The notes beneath the pieces are model-generated. The model was not told the origin of the DNA and searched no databases. It worked only from the letters and a program-made list of their open reading frames with translations. From Leisingera sp. ANG-M7 (lineage in GTDB: Bacteria; Pseudomonadota; Alphaproteobacteria; Rhodobacterales; Rhodobacteraceae): 64,000 bases of DNA. How positions within the stretch are numbered: position 1 is the first letter of the stretch; every line of letters starts with the position of its first letter. Where the stretch lies: contig NZ_JWLI01000017.1 of the NCBI RefSeq assembly GCF_000813965.1, positions 69,478 to 133,477 of the forward strand, given 5' to 3'. A program made the translations under genes and the position numbers. Of the stretch, positions 46,773 to 56,571 are shown in pieces.

Positions 46773-47606
46773 ATGCAACAGTATCACGATCAGCTGCAGT
46801 TCATTCTGGATCACGGGGTGCCGTCAGACGACCGCACCGGTACCGGCACGCTGTCCTGTTTCGGGATGCAGGCACGCTATTCCCTGGCGGACGGCTTCCC
46901 GCTGGTGACCACCAAGAAGCTGCATCTGCGCTCCATCATCCATGAACTGCTGTGGTTCCTGTCCGGCGACACCAACATCCGCTACCTGAAGGAAAACGGG
47001 GTGTCGATCTGGGACGAGTGGGCTGATGAGAATGGCAACCTGGGTCCTGTATACGGCCACCAATGGCGCCGGTTCCCCAAGCTGGAGCTGGCAGAGGGCA
47101 CGTTGGGGGATGAGCCGCTGTACCGTGCGGGCAGCGTCGATCAGATCGCGGATCTGGTGGAGATGATCCGCAAAAGCCCGGACAGCCGCCGCCTGATCGT
47201 GTCGGCCTGGAATCCTGCAGATGTCCCGGACATGGCGCTGCCGCCCTGCCATACGCTGTGGCAGGTGCGGGTTGCGGGCGGCAAGATGCACATGCAGCTG
47301 TATCAGCGCTCTGCCGATATGTTCCTGGGGGTGCCGTTCAACATCGCGTCTTATTCTCTGCTGCTGGCCATGGTGGCGCATGTGACCGGTTACGAGGCCG
47401 GGGATTTTGTGCACACCATGGGTGACGCGCATATCTATTCGAACCATGTGGAGCAGGTGCAGCTGCAGCTGTCGCGCAGCCCCAAGCCGCTGCCGCAGTT
47501 GCGGATCCAGCGTCAGGTGAACTCGATTTTCGACTTCACTTTCGAGGATTTTGAGATCCTGAACTATGACCCCGACCCGGTGATCAAGGCGCCGGTGGCG
47601 GTTTAA
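46773..47606 (+). CDS. thyA: Thymidylate synthase
   Basis: 277 aa. The catalytic Cys159 stands in LPPCHTLWQ; the dUMP-binding Arg loop [13 protein letters not shown] and the folate-side [10 protein letters not shown] block are present, and the C terminus ends KAPVAV as in the family. Makes dTMP and dihydrofolate. folA follows 18 nt later and recycles the dihydrofolate. Confidence 0.95.
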
Positions 47607-47624
47607 GACACAAGGACAACAGGC

Positions 47625-48104
47625 ATGATTACCCTGATCGCTGCGCGAGCGCGCAACGGCGCCATCGGCAAGGACAATGATATCCCGTGGTTTGCGCCCG
47701 AGGATCTGAAGGCGTTCCAGCGCGAGACTTTGGGCGGTGCCATCATCATGGGCCGCAATACCTGGGACAGCCTGCCGGTGAAGCCGTTGAAGAACCGGCT
47801 CAATCTGGTGGTGTCTTCCAACCCGCAGGCGGCAGAGATCGTGCTGCCCTCGATCGAGGCTGCGGTGCAGGAAGCCTATGCCCAAGGCTACCGGCGCGTC
47901 TATGGCATCGGCGGCGAGGGGATCTATCGCGGAATGCTGGAGATGGCAGACAGGCTGCTGGTTACCGAGGTGGATCTGACCATCGAGGATGCAGATGCCT
48001 ATTTCCCGGAGTTTCAGGCTGACGACTGGGCAAAGGCCGGGGAAACGGTGCTGCGCGGAAGCGATCCGGCTTGTGTGATGGTGGAATACTTGCGGAAGGG
48101 CTGA
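47625..48104 (+). CDS. folA: Dihydrofolate reductase
   Basis: 159 aa. MITLIAARARNGAIGKDNDIPWFAPEDLKAF (in part) has the active-site Trp and the acid Glu26 (shown as PEDL); GGAIIMGRNTWDSLP is the NADPH/folate block. Reduces dihydrofolate made by thyA. Convergent with the cold-shock gene across a GC-rich hairpin at 48121-48147. Confidence 0.93.
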   Translation: MITLIAARARNGAIGKDNDIPWFAPEDLKAFQRETLGGAIIMGRNTWDSLPVKPLKNRLNLVVSSNPQAAEIVLPSIEAAVQEAYAQGYRRVYGIGGEGIYRGMLEMADRLLVTEVDLTIEDADAYFPEFQADDWAKAGETVLRGSDPACVMVEYLRKG

Positions 48105-48120
48105 GACAGCACGTCAGTGC

Positions 48121-48147
48121 CTGCGCCCGGTCAATGTCCGGGCGCAG
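48121..48147. terminator. GC-rich hairpin between folA and cold-shock gene
   Basis: Perfect 10-bp arms CTGCGCCCGG / CCGGGCGCAG with loop TCAATGT between convergent genes. No T-run follows on either strand, so it may be a weak or Rho-assisted bidirectional terminator. Confidence 0.45.
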
Positions 48148-48162
48148 CGCAGGCATGAGACC

Positions 48163-48369
48163 TTACATCGCCTTGATGTCGGCCGCCATTTGCCGGCCGT
48201 CCCGGCCCTCGGTCAGCTGATAGCCGACTTTCATGTTGTCGGCGAGACCGGTCATGCCCGACCGCTCCACCGCTGAAATGTGCACAAACACATCCTTGCC
48301 GCCTTCATCGGGTTCAATAAACCCGTACCCTTTGGTGGTGTTGAACCACTTCACGGTGCCGCTTGGCAT
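48163..48369 (-). CDS. Cold-shock protein, CspA family
   Basis: 68 aa, one cold-shock domain with RNP1 KGYGFIEP and RNP2 VFVHISAVE. Binds single-stranded RNA/DNA as a chaperone. AAGGAG is placed before the ATG. A 190-nt region to the next gene could encode a long 5' leader, common for cold-shock genes. Confidence 0.93.
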   Translation of the reverse strand: MPSGTVKWFNTTKGYGFIEPDEGGKDVFVHISAVERSGMTGLADNMKVGYQLTEGRDGRQMAADIKAM

Positions 48370-48558
48370 TTCCCGTGTCTCCTTCTACTTTGCACGTCGC
48401 CCCGGGATGCCCAGGGGTATCCGGCCCGTTCCCTGATTGCGGGGAACATGGTTAAACCGAACAACCTAGAGTTTTGCACGGGCTGAATGAAAATCAAGAG
48501 AAACCGGTGAATTCTACCATAAATTGTGTGAATTCCGGATGGGGAGCATGAAGGCATC

Positions 48559-48876
48559 ATGAAAATCTATGGGCTCAAGAACTGCGACACCTGCCGCAAG
48601 GCGTTGAAAGCGCTTCCTGATTCGGTTCTGTCGGATATCCGCGCGGATGGCATGCCGGAGGGTTTGCTGGAGGCTGCGCATACGCAGTTCGGCGACAAGC
48701 TGATCAACACGCGGTCGACCACTTGGAGAGGCCTGAGCGAGGAAGAGCGCGCCAGCGAGCCGCTCGACCTGCTGCGGGCGCACCCGGCATTGATGAAGCG
48801 GCCGCTGATCGAGCGTGACGGGGAATTATTCCTGGGCTGGGATCAGAACACCAAGGCGGCTCTTGGCGCGGCCTGA
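48559..48876 (+). CDS. ArsC/Spx-like family protein
   Basis: 105 aa, ArsC fold. The N-terminal motif is KNCDTCRKA with Cys9 and Cys12, the CxxC of the Spx/YffB branch and not of true arsenate reductases. KRPLIERDG near residues 75-83 holds the conserved Arg-Pro cis turn. Likely a thiol-redox or glutathione-dependent reductase of unknown substrate. Confidence 0.8.
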   Translation: MKIYGLKNCDTCRKALKALPDSVLSDIRADGMPEGLLEAAHTQFGDKLINTRSTTWRGLSEEERASEPLDLLRAHPALMKRPLIERDGELFLGWDQNTKAALGAA

Positions 48877-48918
48877 GGCGGCGCATATGTCATTCCCGCA
48901 GTTTCTGGGAGAGAATTG

Positions 48919-49287
48919 ATGCGTAATGCAGCCCTTGTTCTGGGGATCATCGCCGGGATTTTCGGCATGGTGGTGGGGTTGTTCGGCTATGGCTACACCG
49001 CTGCGGTGGAGCATTTCGGCGAGGTTGAGGGGCTGGCCGAGCAGGTCGAGAACGTCGAGAAGCTGCGGCTGCTGGCGGTGCTGTCGCCTATGCTGGCGAT
49101 TGCCGGCGGGGCGATGGCACGGGCGCGGGCCTTGTGGGGCGGTATTCTGCTGCTGGGGTCGGCGGCGGGGATGTATGCGGGCTTTGGCCTCAACGTCTTT
49201 ACCATTTTCCCGCTCAGCTTTGCCGCGGTGGGCGGCTTGATGGCGCTTGCGGCGGGCAAGCCGGACGAACCCAAGGCGCATTTCTGA
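48919..49287 (+). CDS. Small membrane protein
   Basis: 122 aa with four hydrophobic segments: LVLGIIAGIFGMVVGLFGYGY, LAVLSPMLAIAGGAMA, ALWGGILLLGSAAGMYAGFG and FPLSFAAVGGLMALAAG. A Glu-rich loop follows segment 1. No function assigned. ATG at 48919 is used; TTG at 48916 is adjacent. It shares a bidirectional terminator with the bufferin operon. Confidence 0.6.
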   Translation: MRNAALVLGIIAGIFGMVVGLFGYGYTAAVEHFGEVEGLAEQVENVEKLRLLAVLSPMLAIAGGAMARARALWGGILLLGSAAGMYAGFGLNVFTIFPLSFAAVGGLMALAAGKPDEPKAHF

Positions 49288-49306
49288 TCCATAGCGAAAC
49301 CGCATG

Positions 49307-49340
49307 AAAAAGGCGCCGCTGCCGGGGCAGGGCGCCTTTT
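49307..49340. terminator. Bidirectional terminator, membrane gene / buf operon
   Basis: Outer stem AAAAGGCGCC / GGCGCCTTTT with inner CTGC / GCAG and a CGGG loop. T-runs exist on both strands, so it can end the plus-strand membrane gene and the minus-strand bufferin operon. Confidence 0.85.
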
Positions 49341-49360
49341 GCGTTTGACAACTGGTGGTG

Positions 49361-49924
49361 TCAGGCGATGGCCGGTTCCATCCGGTTGCGCAGCAGGGCG
49401 TCCACGGATAGCGCGCCTGCGCCTTTGACCACCAGAACCGCCAGAAGGAAAACCCAGAACAGCCGCTGGTCCAGGATCACCGCGTCGGGGAAGCGGTCGA
49501 ACAGTGCGCCAAGGGTTTTGTCGTCGGTCGCACCGTGGCCGTAGATGTCGGTCAGCGATTGCACGATGACAAAGCCGATCATGCCGAGCGAAGCGAGGCG
49601 GGTCAGAAGGCCGATGACGATCAGCAGAGGCAGGATGAACTCGGCGTAGGTGCCGGCCAGCACCACCAGTTTCTGGAACAGCCCGAACTGGGAGACGTCA
49701 TAGCCGACAGCCTCCAGCTGTTTCGGGAAGATCTGGCTGTAGGCGCCGATCGAGGGGCTGAACAGGCCGAGGATGCCGTCGCCCAGCTTGGTCAGGCCGG
49801 AGTTCCAGAAGTAGAGCAGCAGGGTGGAGGCGAAGACAAAGCGCGCTGCCAGCGGCAGCAGCCAGTTGCCGCCCCTTTCCACCTGGCGGAAGACGGCGTC
49901 GTGAATGGAGACAAGTGCATGCAT
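49361..49924 (-). CDS. bufD: DoxX family membrane protein of bufferin operon (BufD-like)
   Basis: 187 aa. DoxX fold with four membrane segments (LAARFVFASTLLLYFWNSGLTKL, then YAEFILPLLIVIGLLTRLASLGMIGFVIVQS, in parts). The ATG at 49924 lies 4 nt after the DUF2063 stop. In known bufferin operons a DoxX protein is the fourth gene and is thought to act in redox or membrane steps. The name is by context and the family. Confidence 0.78.
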   Translation of the reverse strand: MHALVSIHDAVFRQVERGGNWLLPLAARFVFASTLLLYFWNSGLTKLGDGILGLFSPSIGAYSQIFPKQLEAVGYDVSQFGLFQKLVVLAGTYAEFILPLLIVIGLLTRLASLGMIGFVIVQSLTDIYGHGATDDKTLGALFDRFPDAVILDQRLFWVFLLAVLVVKGAGALSVDALLRNRMEPAIA

Positions 49925-49928
49925 GGAT

Positions 49929-50684
49929 TTACCCTTTGCTGTCCAATCCGGTGATCGCGCCGCCCTGCAACAGCAGGGCCAGCGTGGCACCCAGGTCGAA
50001 AGTTTCGTCTGCGGCGGCGGCCTGTTCCAGCGCTTCGCCGATGGTGGCGCCCTTCATAAGGGCGCGGATCCAGGTGGCCCCGCCGGGCGGCAGAACCTGG
50101 GGAATGGGGTCGAATTCAGGACGGGTGACCAGCACGTCCTGGGCCTGCGGCTCAGGCTTGGGCGCGCCGTTTTCGGTGTTGTAGCGCCAGATGGCGTGGA
50201 TTGGCCAAGGAGAACAGACAACCTGCACCGCGGGTGCAAGAGAGAGGCGGGTATCCATCAGCTGACCCGGCGTTAGCGCGCCAAGCGCGTCAGGCGCAAT
50301 TGGCGCGGCATCGGCGGCATGGTAGGCGCGGCGCAGAGCCAGCTCCAGCCGGGCCACATCGCCGAGGTAACCCAGATGCTGGAGCTGCTCCATGCCTTCC
50401 AGAAAGGCGGGGAAGTGTTCGCCGTAGAACATCATCAGCGGCGAGGACGGCGGATGCTGGCGCAGATAGATGCCTGCCAGCCCGTCCATGTTCTGCTTGC
50501 CCAGAAGCTTGGCAATCACCGGAAAGGCGCTGTGCATGGCCTCTGTCAGCGAGACGGCGACATTGTTTCGGTAGACACTGAAACGGCGCCCGGCGGGCTG
50601 GTCCTGATGGTCGATCAGACCGTCCGGCACCGGCTGGCCCGCATCCATCATGGCGCGGGTGAACTCTGTCTGGCTGACGCTCAT
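49929..50684 (-). CDS. bufC: DUF2063 RiPP-partner protein (BufC-like)
   Basis: 251 aa. The N-terminal helical domain (FSVYRNNVAVSLTEAMHSAFPVIAKLLG, in part) is the DUF2063 fold; the C-terminal part likely binds the precursor's leader. Partner proteins of this family present the peptide to the MNIO enzyme in methanobactin and bufferin pathways. Start ATG overlaps the stop of bufB (ATGA), so the two are coupled. Confidence 0.85.
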   Translation of the reverse strand: MSVSQTEFTRAMMDAGQPVPDGLIDHQDQPAGRRFSVYRNNVAVSLTEAMHSAFPVIAKLLGKQNMDGLAGIYLRQHPPSSPLMMFYGEHFPAFLEGMEQLQHLGYLGDVARLELALRRAYHAADAAPIAPDALGALTPGQLMDTRLSLAPAVQVVCSPWPIHAIWRYNTENGAPKPEPQAQDVLVTRPEFDPIPQVLPPGGATWIRALMKGATIGEALEQAAAADETFDLGATLALLLQGGAITGLDSKG

Positions 50685-51535
50685 GCCGGGACGCGCTCCA
50701 GCGCGGTTGCGGCGCGGGCGGCCTCTGCCTCCAGCACCGGCCAGTCCGGCACGTCGTTGTCCCATTCGATCAGCACCGGTTTGGGGCCGGATTTTGCCAG
50801 CGTGTAATCCAAGAGCGCCCAGACCGGGTCCACCACCTCGCGCCCGTGGCTGTCGATCAGCAAGGGACGGCCGTGGCCGTCCTCATCCTCGTCGTGGCCG
50901 CCAAGGTGAATCTCGCCGACCTTGTCCAGCGGGAAGGCGTCGATGTAGCCCTGCGGCGAGAAGTCGAGGTTGGTGGCGGAGACAAAGACGTTGTTCACGT
51001 CCAGAAGCAGCCCGCAGCCGGTGCGGCGGGAGATTTCGGCCAGGAACTCAGGCTCGGACCAGGTGCTCTCGGCGAAGGCGAGGTAGCTGGAGGGGTTTTC
51101 CAGCAGCATCCGGCGGCCGATGGTGTCCTGCAGTTCGTTGATGTGATCGCAGATCCGCTGCAGGCTGGTGTCCGTGTAAGGCAGCGGCAGCAGGTCGTTG
51201 TAGAAATGACTGTCGTGGGTGGACCAGGCCAGATGTTCAGAGAAGCTGGCAGGGTTCAGCCAGCCCACCAGATGCTTGAGCCGGGCAAGGTGGTCGGTAT
51301 CCAGGGGCCCTTCGCCGCCGATCGACAGGCCGACGCCATGCACCGACATGGCGAAGTTTTCAGACAAATGGCGCAGCTGCGCAATTGGACGTCCGCCGTC
51401 ACCCATGTAGTTTTCGGCGTGGATTTCCAGCCACTTGACGCTGCCCGGATCGGCGGTGATCTGGGCGAAATGCTGCGGCTTGTAACCGACGCCGGGAGCG
51501 GCGGGCAGCCTGTCATGTGCAGCGGTGTCAAGCAT
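50681..51535 (-). CDS. bufB: MNIO (DUF692) multinuclear iron oxidase (BufB-like)
   Basis: 284 aa, TIM-barrel DUF692 protein. Conserved metal-site strands are visible: WLEIHAENYMG, SVHGVGLSIGG, FSEHLAWS, LLENPSSY, LLLDVNNVFVSA, GEIHLGGH and LIEWDND, each placing His/Glu/Asp toward the barrel. The family oxidises Cys residues of precursor peptides to thiooxazole or oxazolone-thioamide groups. Here the substrate would be the upstream DUF2282 peptide. A terminator-like hairpin lies in the 69-nt gap after the precursor gene. Confidence 0.9.
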   Translation of the reverse strand: MLDTAAHDRLPAAPGVGYKPQHFAQITADPGSVKWLEIHAENYMGDGGRPIAQLRHLSENFAMSVHGVGLSIGGEGPLDTDHLARLKHLVGWLNPASFSEHLAWSTHDSHFYNDLLPLPYTDTSLQRICDHINELQDTIGRRMLLENPSSYLAFAESTWSEPEFLAEISRRTGCGLLLDVNNVFVSATNLDFSPQGYIDAFPLDKVGEIHLGGHDEDEDGHGRPLLIDSHGREVVDPVWALLDYTLAKSGPKPVLIEWDNDVPDWPVLEAEAARAATALERVPA

Positions 51536-51558
51536 GGAGGGTCCTGTGGTCCGGGTGC

Positions 51559-51588
51559 AAAAGGGGCGGGAATTGACACTCCCGCCCC
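51559..51588 (-). terminator. Attenuator-like terminator between bufA and bufB
   Basis: In minus-strand sense, stem GGGGCGGGA / TCCCGCCCC (9 bp, loop 8 nt) is followed by TTTTGC. Partial termination here would give more precursor than enzyme mRNA, as expected for a RiPP operon. Confidence 0.75.
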
Positions 51589-51604
51589 GGAAATCAAGCC
51601 GGTG

Positions 51605-51910
51605 TTATGCCGGCAGGTCGCGCTCCAGCGGCTCCAGCGAGCCCTTGCGCTCAGTGCCGTCTGCCATCGCCGGCAGTTCCATGCCCTCGCAGGTGCCTGC
51701 GTCAACCAGAGTCCAGGCGTTGCCCTGGTAGTCGGTGGTCGAGGTGCCTGCGCAGGTGGTGCCGGGGCCGGCGGCGCAGTCGTTCTGGCCTGCCAGCGAA
51801 ACGCCGTAGCATTTTTCCTTGGTGGCAGCAGCAGCGGGGATGGTCGAAGCTGCGGTCAGAGCGGCGGCAACGGCGCTGGCAACGGCCAGGGATTTTGCGG
51901 TGGTCGACAT
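51605..51910 (-). CDS. bufA: Bufferin-type RiPP precursor, DUF2282
   Basis: 101 aa. A Sec-type signal sequence ([20 protein letters not shown]..., cleavage near AAA-ATKEK) is followed by a core with exactly four Cys: 34, 45, 53 and 74 (KCYG, NDCAAG, TTCAGT, GTCEG). [16 protein letters not shown] and YQGNAWTLV are DUF2282 hallmarks. In Caulobacter, BufA1 Cys residues are modified by MNIO and the product binds copper. An acidic tail ([15 protein letters not shown]) follows the last Cys. Confidence 0.88.
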
Positions 51911-51999
51911 CTCGTGAATTCCTTTCGGTTTAACGTGCGGTGTCGTGTTGACAGGAAAACACTAACCCGAGGTTTTCAGGAATTTAAGTCACGAGGCCG

Positions 52000-52031
52000 T
52001 GTCTCACGTCTGCGTCAGCGTATGTGAGACA
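52000..52031. promoter_or_regulatory. Inverted repeat in buf control region
   Basis: TGTCTCAC / GTGAGACA (8-bp perfect arms, 16 nt apart) lies 90 nt upstream of the bufA start, in the gap after thrS. It could be an operator for the bufferin promoter or a terminator-like structure; no T-run follows. Confidence 0.5.
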
Positions 52032-52078
52032 GGATTGCAGCGCAAAGAGCTGAAATCGCGGGGTTTTACCGGATTTTG

Positions 52079-52106
52079 AAACAAAACGGCCCCCGGATGG
52101 GGGCCG
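52079..52106 (-). terminator. Rho-independent terminator of thrS
   Basis: Stem CGGCCCCC / GGGGGCCG with a 4-nt loop, followed in minus sense by TTTTGT. Lies 26 nt after the thrS stop and separates it from the buf operon. Confidence 0.88.
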
Positions 52107-52131
52107 CTGATGCTGTTTTCGGGACGGAATG

Positions 52132-54078
52132 TTACAGAAGGTCCGGCGGGGTGGCTTCCACCGCCAGTGCCTTTGTAACATTTTCGAGGCTTTCCACCTT
52201 GGTCTGTTTTTCGCCAAGACGGCGGACAGAGACGGTGCGCTCCTCCACCTCGCGGTGGCCGACGGCGAGAATGACCGGAACCTTGCCCACGGAATGTTCG
52301 CGGACCTTGTAGTTGATCTTCTCGTTGCGGATGTCGGCCTCGGCCCGCACGCCGGCTTTCTTCAGTTCGGCCACGACGTCCTGCACATAGTCATCGGCGT
52401 CGGAGGTGATCGAGGCGACCACCACCTGGCGCGGCGCCAGCCAGAACGGCAGCTTGCCAGCGTGTTCCTCGATCAGGATGCCGATGAAACGCTCAAAGGA
52501 GCCGAGGGTGGCGCGGTGCAGCATGACCGGGCGGTGCTTGGCACCGTCGGCGCCGATATAGGTGGCGTCCAGGCGTTCGGGCAGAACAAAGTCCACCTGG
52601 TGGGTGCCGCACTGCCAGTCGCGGCCGATGGCGTCGGTCAGAACGAATTCCAGCTTGGGGCCGTAGAAGGCGCCTTCGCCCGGGTTCAGTTCCGGCTCGA
52701 TCCCGGCGGCGCGGGTGGCGGACAGAAGCGCGGCCTCTGCCTTGTCCCAGACCTCATCGGAACCGGCGCGGGTGTCCGGGCGGTCAGAGAATTTGACCGA
52801 GAACTTCTCGAACCCCAGATCCTTGTAGATCTTTGACAGGAAGTCGATGAACTCCGCGGTTTCGGATTCGATCTGATCCTCGGCGCAGAAGATGTGGCCG
52901 TCATCCTGGGTAAAGCCGCGCACCCGCATGATGCCGTGCAGCGCGCCCGAGGGCTCATACCGGTTGCAGGAGCCGAACTCGGCCATCCGCAGCGGCAGGT
53001 CGCGGTAGGATTTGAGGCCCTGGTTGAAGATCTGCACGTGGCAGGGGCAGTTCATCGGCTTCAGCGCGTTCACCGCCTTTTCGCGGGCGTGCTCCTCGTC
53101 GACTTCGACGATGAACATGTTCTCCTGGTATTTGTCCCAGTGGCCCGAGGCTTCCCACAATTTGCGGTCGACGACCTGCGGGGTGTTCACTTCGACATAG
53201 CCGCCCTTGCGCTGCTGGCGGCGCATGTAGTCCTGCAGCTGGGTGTAGACGGTCCAGCCGTTCGGGTGCCAGAAGATCTGGCCCGGTGCCTCTTCCTGCA
53301 TGTGGAACAGGTCCATTTCGCGGCCCAGTTTGCGGTGGTCGCGCTTGGCGGCCTCTTCCAGCATGTGGAGATGCGCTTTCAGCTTTTCCTTGCCGGTGAA
53401 GGCAACGCCGTAGATCCGCTGCAGCATTGCGCGGGAGCTGTCGCCGCGCCAGTAGGCGCCTGCGATGCTCATCAGCTTGAATGCATCGCCGGGCAACTGG
53501 CCGGTGTGCTGCAGGTGCGGGCCGCGGCAAAGGTCCTGCCAGTCGCCGTGCCAGTACATCCGCAGCGGCTCATTGCCGGGGATGCTTTCGATCAGTTCGA
53601 CCTTATAGGGTTCGTTGTTGTCGGTGTAATGCTGGATCGCGCGGTCGCGTTCCCACACTTCGGTGCGGACTTCATCACGCTTGTTGATGATTTCCTTCAT
53701 CTTTTTCTCGATGGCGCCGAGATCCTCCGGGGTGAAGGGCTCAGCCCGGTCGAAGTCGTAGTACCAGCCGTTCTCAATGACCGGGCCAATGGTGACCTTG
53801 GTGTCGGGCCAGATTTCCTGCACCGCGCGCGCCATCACATGCGCCAGGTCGTGGCGGATCAGCTCATTGGCCTGGACCTCATCCTTCATGGTGTGGATGG
53901 CGATGGTGGCGTCGCCTTCGATTGGCCACTGCAGGTCCCAGTGCTGATCGTTGACGGTGGCAGAGATGGCCTTCTTGGCCAGCGAGGTCGAGATGCCGGC
54001 AGCCACCTGCGCAGGGGTTATACCTGCGTCGTAGGATCGTGCATTGCCATCGGGGAAAGTGAGAGAGATTTGGGCCAT
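52132..54078 (-). CDS. thrS: Threonyl-tRNA synthetase
   Basis: 648 aa with TGS domain (residues 1-62), the [13 protein letters not shown] second domain, class II catalytic core ([10 protein letters not shown] zinc region; [19 protein letters not shown], in part) and C-terminal anticodon domain. ATG 54078 follows GAGGAG. The frame stays open further upstream but that portion has no homology. Own terminator; the downstream buf operon is separate. Confidence 0.96.
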
Positions 54079-54358
54079 GGTCTGGCTGCTCCTCGTCGGT
54101 TTGGCGCCCACAGAACGCCCGGTTGCGGGTATGTGTTTGGTCTGCGCGTTTTGCTGCCAATACAAGGGCAAGTCAAGGCGGCATTGCATGTGATTGTAAT
54201 TGCGCAGGAATTTCCGTTTGTGTGCCTGTGCATGCGATTGTACAAATATGTATACCGCTAAGCAATTGAAAAATAACAAAAAAATTGTTGCCATGAATGG
54301 CGATCCGGGGCAGGGTGGCCGAAATCTTAGGCCCAATGGACATACCAGGAGTGTTCCG

Positions 54359-54607
54359 ATGACCCGCCCGAACCCGAACTTTGACCTGACGGTTGAAGAT
54401 GTGGATCTGATTGAAACCGCACTGTGCCAGTCGCAGAAAATCCTGTCGCACCGCCATCTGTCTTATGAGCACGGCGCGCAGATCGAAGGCGGAGCAAACA
54501 TGGAGAAGGCGGTGCAGACCGGGGAGGTCCTGAGCCGGATTCAGAACCTGCTGGGCCGTTTGCAGATGCAAAAGGTGAGCGGGACACCTGCCGCCGGACT
54601 GTCCTGA
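54359..54607 (+). CDS. Small helical protein of unknown function
   Basis: 82 aa, soluble and mainly helical ([19 protein letters not shown], ...[23 protein letters not shown]). AGGAG lies 7 nt before the ATG, so translation is well supported. No family recognised. It is divergent from thrS. Confidence 0.6.
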
Positions 54608-54622
54608 TCCTCCGCCGGGCAA

Positions 54623-54672
54623 GCGAGGGGCCAGCCCCTCGCGCTCCCCGGGATATTTTCAGCCAGATGAAG
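54623..54672. repeat. Roseobacter-type intergenic repeat, form B
   Basis: Perfect hairpin GCGAGGGGC-CA-GCCCCTCGC followed by TCCCCGGGATATTTT and CCAGATGAAGA. Same layout as the block at 33160-33220. Confidence 0.5.
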
Positions 54673-54683
54673 ACGATCCCGGT

Positions 54684-55688
54684 TTATTGGGCTGGTGAGG
54701 GCACGCCTTCGCGGATCATGGCGGAGTAGTCGGGACCGACCCCATGCGCCTGTGCGATCGGTGTGACGCTGCCAAGCGCGCGCAGGTTTTCGACGCTGCG
54801 GCTCTGGTCAAGCACGCCTTGCTCCCAGGCAAACTCCGGCAGGTAGCCATTGGCCAGCACCCGCCAGTCCAGCGGCACCTCGTCCGCAAAGCTGCGGATC
54901 AGGGTCATCACCACCGTGGTGCAATTGGTGGTCAGGGAGTTGTACCACTGGGGCCGGGCTGCCAGGCTGTTGGCGGTCTCAACATATTTCAGCAGCAGTT
55001 CCCGCCCGGTGTCGGGGCTCACACCGATGCGGAACAGCTGCACATCCTCGCCGCGGGCATTGGTGCGGGTGCCGACCAGATCGCGCTCGTCGGCGGCGAT
55101 CAGAACCAGGGTGTTGGATTTGAACAGGTCGGCAATGGGAGAGAAACCGCCGCCCAGCTGACGCCGCACCTCGACGGACCAGGCGATGTGGTCGCCGCCC
55201 TCAAAGCCGAAGCTGACGATCATATGTGCCATCTGCGGGCCTGCCCAATAGGACATGAAGAGGTCGGTGGATTGCAGCTTGGTCAGGTCGTAGCTGCGGG
55301 TCTCCCAGGCCTCGGCGAAGTCTTCCGGCGTTTCCCATGCGAAGTTGCGCACGTTTTCGAGGGTGAGGATGTCGCCCTCGAACGTGCCGGTCACCTGGCG
55401 GGCCACATCGGGCGACCAGTTGCGCTCTGCGGGCGGGGTGAGGGTGGACCACCACAGGATGACGGCAGCCATCGCCAGCGCAAAAGTGGTGAGCGCGCGC
55501 AAGGCGCGGCGGCGGAACATGCTTGCGATTACGGCAACACCCAGCAGGCCAAAGCCGCTCGCCAAGGCCCCGCGGCCCAGTGTCTCAAAGGGCAGCCGGT
55601 ACCATAGGGCCATGACGGCCCAAACTGTTGCCAGGGCCACTGCAATGATCGCGGCGCCAGTGAAAATGCCCTTGATGAGTCTGAACAT
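54684..55688 (-). CDS. DUF4105 family membrane protein
   Basis: 334 aa. Three N-terminal hydrophobic segments (MFRLIKGIFTGAAIIAVALATVWAV, in part, then two more up to residue 80) precede the DUF4105 domain with SFGFEGGDHIAWSVEVRR and NCTTVVMTLIRSF. The Cys/His arrangement (TNCTT and GDHIAWS) recalls papain-like folds, but activity is unproven. ATG at 55688 is used; the longer frame has no support. Confidence 0.75.
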   Translation of the reverse strand: MFRLIKGIFTGAAIIAVALATVWAVMALWYRLPFETLGRGALASGFGLLGVAVIASMFRRRALRALTTFALAMAAVILWWSTLTPPAERNWSPDVARQVTGTFEGDILTLENVRNFAWETPEDFAEAWETRSYDLTKLQSTDLFMSYWAGPQMAHMIVSFGFEGGDHIAWSVEVRRQLGGGFSPIADLFKSNTLVLIAADERDLVGTRTNARGEDVQLFRIGVSPDTGRELLLKYVETANSLAARPQWYNSLTTNCTTVVMTLIRSFADEVPLDWRVLANGYLPEFAWEQGVLDQSRSVENLRALGSVTPIAQAHGVGPDYSAMIREGVPSPAQ

Positions 55689-55821
55689 GCCCCCGGGGTC
55701 CTTCAAAAAATTTTGCGGACCATAAGGAAGTCGGCAGGGGAGTTGCAAGCAGGCAGTGCAGCTGCTTGCGGGGCGGGCGGAGCCGTGCCACATCTTGGGA
55801 AAAGCACAGGAGAGCAAAGAC

Positions 55822-56571
55822 ATGCCAGCTGCATCATACCTTGAGACCGCCCAGGGCCGCCGGATTGCCTATCATCTGAGCGAGGGGCAAGGGCCGTGCG
55901 TGGTATTCCTGGGCGGGCTGAAGTCGGACATGGAAGGCACCAAGGCGGTGCATCTGGAGGCCTGGGCGAAGGCACGCGGACAGGCGTTTCTGCGGTTCGA
56001 CTATTCCGGTCATGGCGAAAGCTCCGGCACGTTCGAGGAAGGCTGCATCGGCGACTGGCATGAGGACACGCTGGAGGCGGTTGCGCAGCTGACTGAAGGC
56101 GTGATCGTACCCGTGGGCTCCTCCATGGGCGGCTGGCAGGCGCTATTGCTGGCGCGGGAGATGCCGGAACGGATCAAGGGCCTGGTGACCATCGCGGCGG
56201 CGCCGGATTTCACCGAGGACGGCTATTGGGCCAATTTTTCGGATGCGCAAAAGGCCGAGCTGGAGAGCCGCGGCTATGTGGAGCTGCCGAGCGACTATAT
56301 GGAGCCCTACCATATCTCCAAGCGGATGATCGAAGACGGACGCAAGCGGCTGGTGCTGCGGACGCCGCTGTTCCTGCCCTTCAAGGTACGCTGTCTGCAG
56401 GGAACGGCGGATACCGCGGTGTCGACAGAGACCGCGCTGCGGCTGATGGAGCATGCGACTTGTCCCGACATGCGGCTGAACCTGGTGAAGGACGCGGATC
56501 ACCGGTTCTCGGACGAGGCCTGTCTGCAGATGATCGAGGATGCGGTACTGGACGTCCTGGGCACCGCCTGA
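55822..56571 (+). CDS. Alpha/beta hydrolase (ABHD10-like)
   Basis: 249 aa. The oxyanion strand VVFLGGLKSDMEGTKA, the nucleophile elbow GSSMGG (Ser101), GTADTAVS (acid) and DADHRFSD (His) complete the triad. Close to bacterial esterases resembling mitochondrial ABHD10. Its stop overlaps the next gene's start by one base (TGATG), so it heads a three-gene run. Confidence 0.82.
   Translation: MPAASYLETAQGRRIAYHLSEGQGPCVVFLGGLKSDMEGTKAVHLEAWAKARGQAFLRFDYSGHGESSGTFEEGCIGDWHEDTLEAVAQLTEGVIVPVGSSMGGWQALLLAREMPERIKGLVTIAAAPDFTEDGYWANFSDAQKAELESRGYVELPSDYMEPYHISKRMIEDGRKRLVLRTPLFLPFKVRCLQGTADTAVSTETALRLMEHATCPDMRLNLVKDADHRFSDEACLQMIEDAVLDVLGTA

Follow-up and report, generated by a model that had tools for sequence, protein, structure and literature searches.

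A Buf1-type bufferin operon in Leisingera sp. ANG-M7 and a conserved tandem-palindrome element upstream of its precursor gene

The locus at positions 49361-51910 of the analysed stretch of Leisingera sp. ANG-M7 DNA (64,000 nucleotides, contig positions 69478-133477, hereafter the window) is very probably a biosynthetic operon for a bufferin (captophorin) of the Buf1 type, with the mechanism and control proposed below. The operon itself is ordinary, a textbook member of a very large class. What is fresh is a conserved element before the precursor gene bufA, which suggests an on-switch other than that of Caulobacter, a moderately interesting side-finding on an ordinary operon. If the element is real, it would offer a starting point for identifying the regulator that acts on copper-buffering peptides in a widespread group of marine bacteria, and two or more different switches would serve the same RiPP operon within a single family.

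Four genes lie on the minus strand in the order bufA-bufB-bufC-bufD (Table 1). The bufB stop and the bufC start share the letters ATGA, an overlap of 4 nt, and a further 4 nt separate the bufC stop from the ATG of bufD. This order, the two junctions and a precursor with four cysteines had been read from the sequence in the initial annotation, and the coordinates confirm each of them. The profile search suggested there also bears out the annotation, as all four proteins exceed the curated cut-offs of their Pfam families: PF10048 (DUF2282) scores 85.5 bits on BufA against a cut-off of 22.4, PF05114 (MbnB_TglH_ChrH) 337.5 bits on BufB against 25, PF09836 (DUF2063) 82.3 bits on BufC against 27.2, and PF07681 (DoxX) 31.1 bits on BufD against 23.6. 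The family assignment of all four genes is supported; at the level of NCBIfam equivalogs, BufC and BufD fall below the cut-offs of HvfC and HvfX, respectively. The genome of 4.58 Mb holds one DUF2282 match and one MNIO match.

Table 1. Positions in the window of the bufferin operon genes and of sequence features around them.
Feature	Position	Strand	Description or basis
bufA	51910 (ATG) to 51605 (stop)	-	DUF2282 (Buf1) precursor, 101 aa
bufB	51535 (ATG) to 50681 (stop)	-	MNIO enzyme (formerly DUF692), 284 aa
bufC	50684 (ATG) to 49929	-	DUF2063 (PME1-type) partner protein, 251 aa
bufD	49924 (ATG) to 49361	-	DoxX-family membrane protein, 187 aa
Tandem-palindrome element TGACG-CAGA-CGTGA-GA-CAC-GGCCT-CGTGA	51989..52017	-	Conserved; putative activator operator
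Further half-site TCACA	52023-52027		Beside the tandem-palindrome element
Putative promoter: -35-like TTAAAT (51987-51982), 17 bp, -10-like TAGTGT (51964-51959)	51959..51987	-	Column conservation
Terminator-like hairpin of thrS	52085..52108	-	Terminator scan; separates thrS from the buf control region
bufA-bufB hairpin GGGGCGGGAGT-GTCA-ATTCCCGCCCC, then TTTT	51559..51588	-	11-bp GC-rich stem; putative partial terminator or mRNA 3' stabiliser
Hairpin AGGCGCC, 13-nt loop, GGCGCCT and T run after bufD	49311..49337	-	Read from sequence; likely operon terminator

The precursor family DUF2282 is found in all 21 genomes of the genus, the present one included, and in 279 of the 394 family genomes (about one genome per genus). 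As regards novelty the operon is therefore ordinary, one more member of a very large class that is common in its family. Among the matches listed, the closest relatives of BufB belong to Leisingera. When the window is taken together with the best 80 of at least 570 confirmed loci of BufB relatives, the order bufA-bufB-bufC-bufD on one strand is kept in 81 of 81 loci, which excludes a chance association of the four genes. In this set of 81, bufB and bufC overlap by 4 nt in 63 loci, by 7 nt in 13 and by 10 nt in one, and are separated by a gap of 20-26 nt in the other four. Thousands of bufferins with the same core are described in a published survey (PMC12452194).

Order and content of the four genes (DUF2282-DUF692-DUF2063-DoxX) are the same as those given for CC3254-CC3257 of Caulobacter, a Buf1 operon of the SigF regulon (PMC3511200). 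The two homologous operons of Caulobacter are reported to depend on SigF, for which the binding sequence GTAACC-N16-CGAA is given, to be restrained by NrsF, and to be induced by chromate and cadmium under SigF (PMC3511200). The Caulobacter system had initially been annotated as inducible by copper or gold; induction by copper is indeed reported (PMC8224329), whereas induction by gold is described instead for Cupriavidus and Legionella (PMC8224329, PMC5413113). The gig operon of Cupriavidus metallidurans and lpg2105-2108 of Legionella pneumophila encode the same four families, the latter on an integrative element and with a metal response that is tied to RpoS (PMC5413113). In Caulobacter, nrsF and sigF (CC3252, CC3253) are described as preceding the operon, whereas neither is adjacent to the Leisingera operon, which carries the tandem-palindrome element instead. 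Searches by tblastn with one ECF and two NrsF queries found no match around the operon (window 47401-56000), and NrsF has no match at E 0.001 in the whole genome (7 of 11 first-look candidates scored).

The gene upstream of bufA is thrS. An ungapped stack of upstream regions from the best-80 BufB set (79 of 80 regions; L061 gave none, and the short, low-scoring L076 was dropped) exhibits a near-invariant TNAC-N6-yTGACG-N5-GTGA-N2-CAC-N6-GTGA, followed by a -35-like TTNAA, 17 bp and a -10 resembling TA-N3-T, where the spacer between the two hexamers is poorly conserved. The strict form of the element, TNACG-N4-YGTGA-N2-CAC-N5-CGTGA, lies just upstream of the putative promoter. A consensus promoter scan reported 0 promoter-like sites at this position, and the hexamers are therefore proposed from conservation only; a terminator scan over the same stretch lists a weak terminator-like hairpin (51980-51966). 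Nothing in positions 49000-52600 scores above the gathering score of an Rfam family, and among the papers listed by literature searches outside the subscription journals there was no report on the element or on bufferin control in Rhodobacteraceae. A first operator candidate, the inverted repeat TGTCTCAC-N16-GTGAGACA, is intact only in the window and L003-L005 among the 80 rows, as well as in some further loci of the genus, and was given up for the wider tandem-palindrome element.

An element score of at least 20 is reached by 77 of the 80 upstream regions of the best-80 BufB set and by 5 of 2000 dinucleotide shuffles, and a looser double-palindrome pattern occurs in 66 of these 80 regions and in none of 2000 shuffles. 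Because the scoring consensus was derived from the very loci that were scored, a search of the 394 family genomes with the strict pattern is the more independent test. It returned 50 genomes with one copy each, while the reversed-pattern control returned 0. Thirty of these sites were examined as loci (the window and 28 of the other 29 have the element before bufA) and 11 by the coordinate of the DUF2282 match, so that 40 of 41 sites checked lie upstream of bufA; the remaining nine sites are in genomes without listed DUF2282 places. The one exception, L155, comes from a genome without a DUF2282 match (G132) and carries the strict element at 1501-1529 on the minus strand. There it precedes an L,D-transpeptidase-like (YkuD) ORF, which may be due to chance or may represent a second member of a regulon. 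Given exactly one strict site per genome in 50 genomes, bufA may be almost the sole full-strength target of the putative regulator. In the genome of the window, the full element with up to three mismatches has 23 matches (13 for the reversed control), namely one exact match, its opposite-strand counterpart with two mismatches, and 21 other places that all have three. Six of these 21 places were inspected; an ORF overlaps the site in 6 of 6 (some of these ORFs may not be genes), and none of the six lies before an obvious copper gene.

The distribution of the element was compared with that of the Caulobacter-type switch in the window and 130 further loci, which comprise the best 80 BufB matches (L003-L082), loci of the genus (L083-L102) and the best-scoring DUF2282 matches of the family (L103-L132). 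This set is no random sample and probably contains some species repeatedly. Of its 131 loci, 113 are linked to thrS, none of them with ECF/NrsF genes, and 102 of the 113 have an element score of at least 20. ECF/NrsF genes are linked to 11 loci, none of which has thrS or reaches this score. The other seven loci have neither neighbor, two of them carry the element, and L061 is cut off by a contig end. Within L103-L132, 6 of the 14 thrS-linked loci, none of the 11 ECF-linked loci and one of the remaining five score at least 20; the looser double-palindrome pattern is seen in three of these 30 loci, each of them thrS-linked. In three of the remaining five (L109, L114 and L116, element score 18), an NrsF gene does lie about 4 kb away from bufA, beyond the examined stretch. 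In L119, an apparent copy with 22 matches lies in the opposite orientation at about 1300-1336, upstream of bufA (1414) and outside the single-strand count.

Taken from these sequence comparisons, there is about an even chance that the bufferin operon of the Roseobacter-type lineage is no longer under SigF/NrsF control and that a regulator, possibly a copper-sensing one, binds a tandem TNACG-N4-CGTNA operator by the -35 region. Alternatively, the element could be shared through common ancestry and have little function, or could belong to the 3' region of thrS, and would then be no dedicated operator. The loci are relatives of one another and most have the same thrS-buf synteny, as the 102 of 113 thrS-linked loci above the score threshold reflect, and their rows are therefore not independent. 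This explanation is nevertheless unlikely, since the core columns of the element are near-invariant beside a variable spacer and since the element is also present before bufA in loci without an adjacent thrS match (L160, the pair L069 and L157 with their common upstream sequence and, more weakly, L123). Furthermore, the strict element occurs in just 1 of the 115 family genomes that lack DUF2282, and there it does not lie beside a thrS match.

Similarly improbable is that an unlinked ECF sigma factor still controls the operon and that the element is only auxiliary. The ECF search covered the surroundings of the operon only, the genome of the thrS-linked locus L126 (element score 20) contains an NrsF gene at a distance of about 52 kb, and one genome, G403, combines the strict element with an NrsF gene over the cut-off. 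Against this stand the absence of an NrsF match from the genome of the window, the 0 of 11 ECF/NrsF-linked buf loci that reach an element score of 20, and the rarity of the combination seen in G403: among the 279 genomes with DUF2282, 49 have the strict element, 42 have NrsF over the cut-off and this one alone has both (Fisher 0.0017, uncorrected for kinship). For all 394 genomes, the numbers with both, the element only, NrsF only and neither are 1, 49, 51 and 293 (Fisher 0.005, likewise uncorrected for kinship). As these tests are not corrected for phylogeny, the mutual avoidance of element and NrsF is only suggestive. The strict element is absent from 230 of the 279 genomes with DUF2282, and 189 of these are also without NrsF over the cut-off, which implies either that degenerate copies escape the strict pattern or that the operon is controlled in additional ways.

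The precursor BufA has cysteines at positions 34, 45, 53 and 74 and no more, and all four columns are invariant in an alignment of 25 sequences. A strict BufA motif with four cysteines is present in 127 of 130 loci and absent from L124, L128 and L132. By eye, the N-terminus resembles a signal peptide over residues 1 to about 28, with a positive start, a hydrophobic stretch and an AxA site. Beyond the last cysteine, P80, R88, G90, S91, L92, R97 and D98 are invariant across the 25 sequences, which are those of roseobacter relatives, and this conserved tail (window 51605-51650 for R88 to D98) is a possible recognition or stability motif. The NCBIfam model of BufA2 (NF050166) gives 19.5 bits, below its cut-off of 60, and BufA is therefore Buf1-like and not Buf2. 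A sequence search of BufA against solved structures gave no match at E 1, and an AlphaFold2 model of BufA was unusable (pLDDT 46).

BufB scores 369.2 bits against the cut-off of 310 with NF050167 (MNIO_BufB, "MNIO family bufferin maturase"), and lies below the NCBIfam cut-offs of HvfB (224.8 against 360), ApyH, MbnB and ChrH. Its alignment with 3BWW shares the motifs His-Gly, Ser-(Glu/Asp)-His, Glu-Asn, Asp-Val-Asn-Asn and Gly-His-Asp, which presumably include iron ligands. The AlphaFold2 model of the partner protein BufC (pLDDT 90.7) is predicted to fold like TglI and NGO1945: a Foldseek search at E <= 0.001 returned only two TglHI entries and 3DEE, with E 5.6e-07 for the TglHI partner chain and E 4.3e-04 for 3DEE. 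By sequence, BufC has no match to 3DEE at E 0.1; a weak match of BufC to a transporter (E 0.021) was set aside. EGKCG-repeat captophorins (fontiphorin, gonophorin and oxazolin) are likewise described as combining an MNIO-PME1 pair and a Cys-rich precursor into a thiooxazole metallophore (PMC13097082). The Leisingera precursor differs from these in being a DUF2282 protein with four cysteines and no EGKCG repeat, and its enzyme in the HvfB score given above.

In bufferin homologues, cysteines are converted to 5-thiooxazoles and the exported product is reported to bind copper (PMC12452194, PMC13097082); according to a figure legend, the inner cysteines are modified and the outer ones form a disulfide (PMC12452194, Fig. 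3). By analogy, thiooxazole chemistry, copper binding or buffering and export to the periplasm are inferred for the Leisingera peptide. BufB and its partner BufC would oxidise cysteines of BufA to 5-thiooxazoles in the cytoplasm, with the inner Cys45 and Cys53 as the likely targets by homology and Cys34 and Cys74 joined in a disulfide. The putative Sec signal peptide would then carry the modified peptide to the periplasm, where excess copper would be bound, and BufD would act as a membrane accessory. Transcription would be driven by the promoter with the conserved tandem-palindrome operator and not by a linked SigF/NrsF pair of the Caulobacter type, and the hairpin 3' of bufA would bias expression towards the precursor. 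A related MNIO pathway with another product or metal, in which BufB performs a different oxidation or the peptide mainly serves against gold, silver, cadmium or oxidative stress, would fit the diverse chemistries reported for MNIO enzymes (PMC12452194) and the gold, chromate and cadmium responses of related operons, yet is very unlikely given that BufB exceeds the BufB equivalog cut-off and none of those of HvfB, ApyH, MbnB and ChrH, and that all MNIO-PME1 cases described as characterised yield 5-thiooxazole (PMC13097082).

The hairpin between bufA and bufB may cause partial termination or protect the 3' end of the bufA message, so that more precursor than enzyme would be made. In the best-80 BufB set and the window, a stem of at least 6 pairs followed by a T run occurs in the bufA-bufB spacer of 54 of 81 loci. 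A stem of at least 8 pairs followed by at least three T is present in 47 of the 76 loci whose spacers lie within the size limits (five were left out) and in 74 of 760 shuffles, uncorrected for kinship. The terminator scan, which needs at least five T, does not list this hairpin; nor does the scan, at loops of 3-8, list the hairpin after bufD with its loop of 13 nt. Beyond bufD, the plus strand holds two ORFs that converge on the operon, one of the ArsC family (PF03960, 48559-48876) and a small membrane-protein-like one without a Pfam match (48916-49287). The bufA-bufB spacer is enlarged in L057 (358 nt), L020 (277 nt), L080 (207 nt) and L078 (195 nt), and measures 52-138 nt in the other 77 of the 81 loci.
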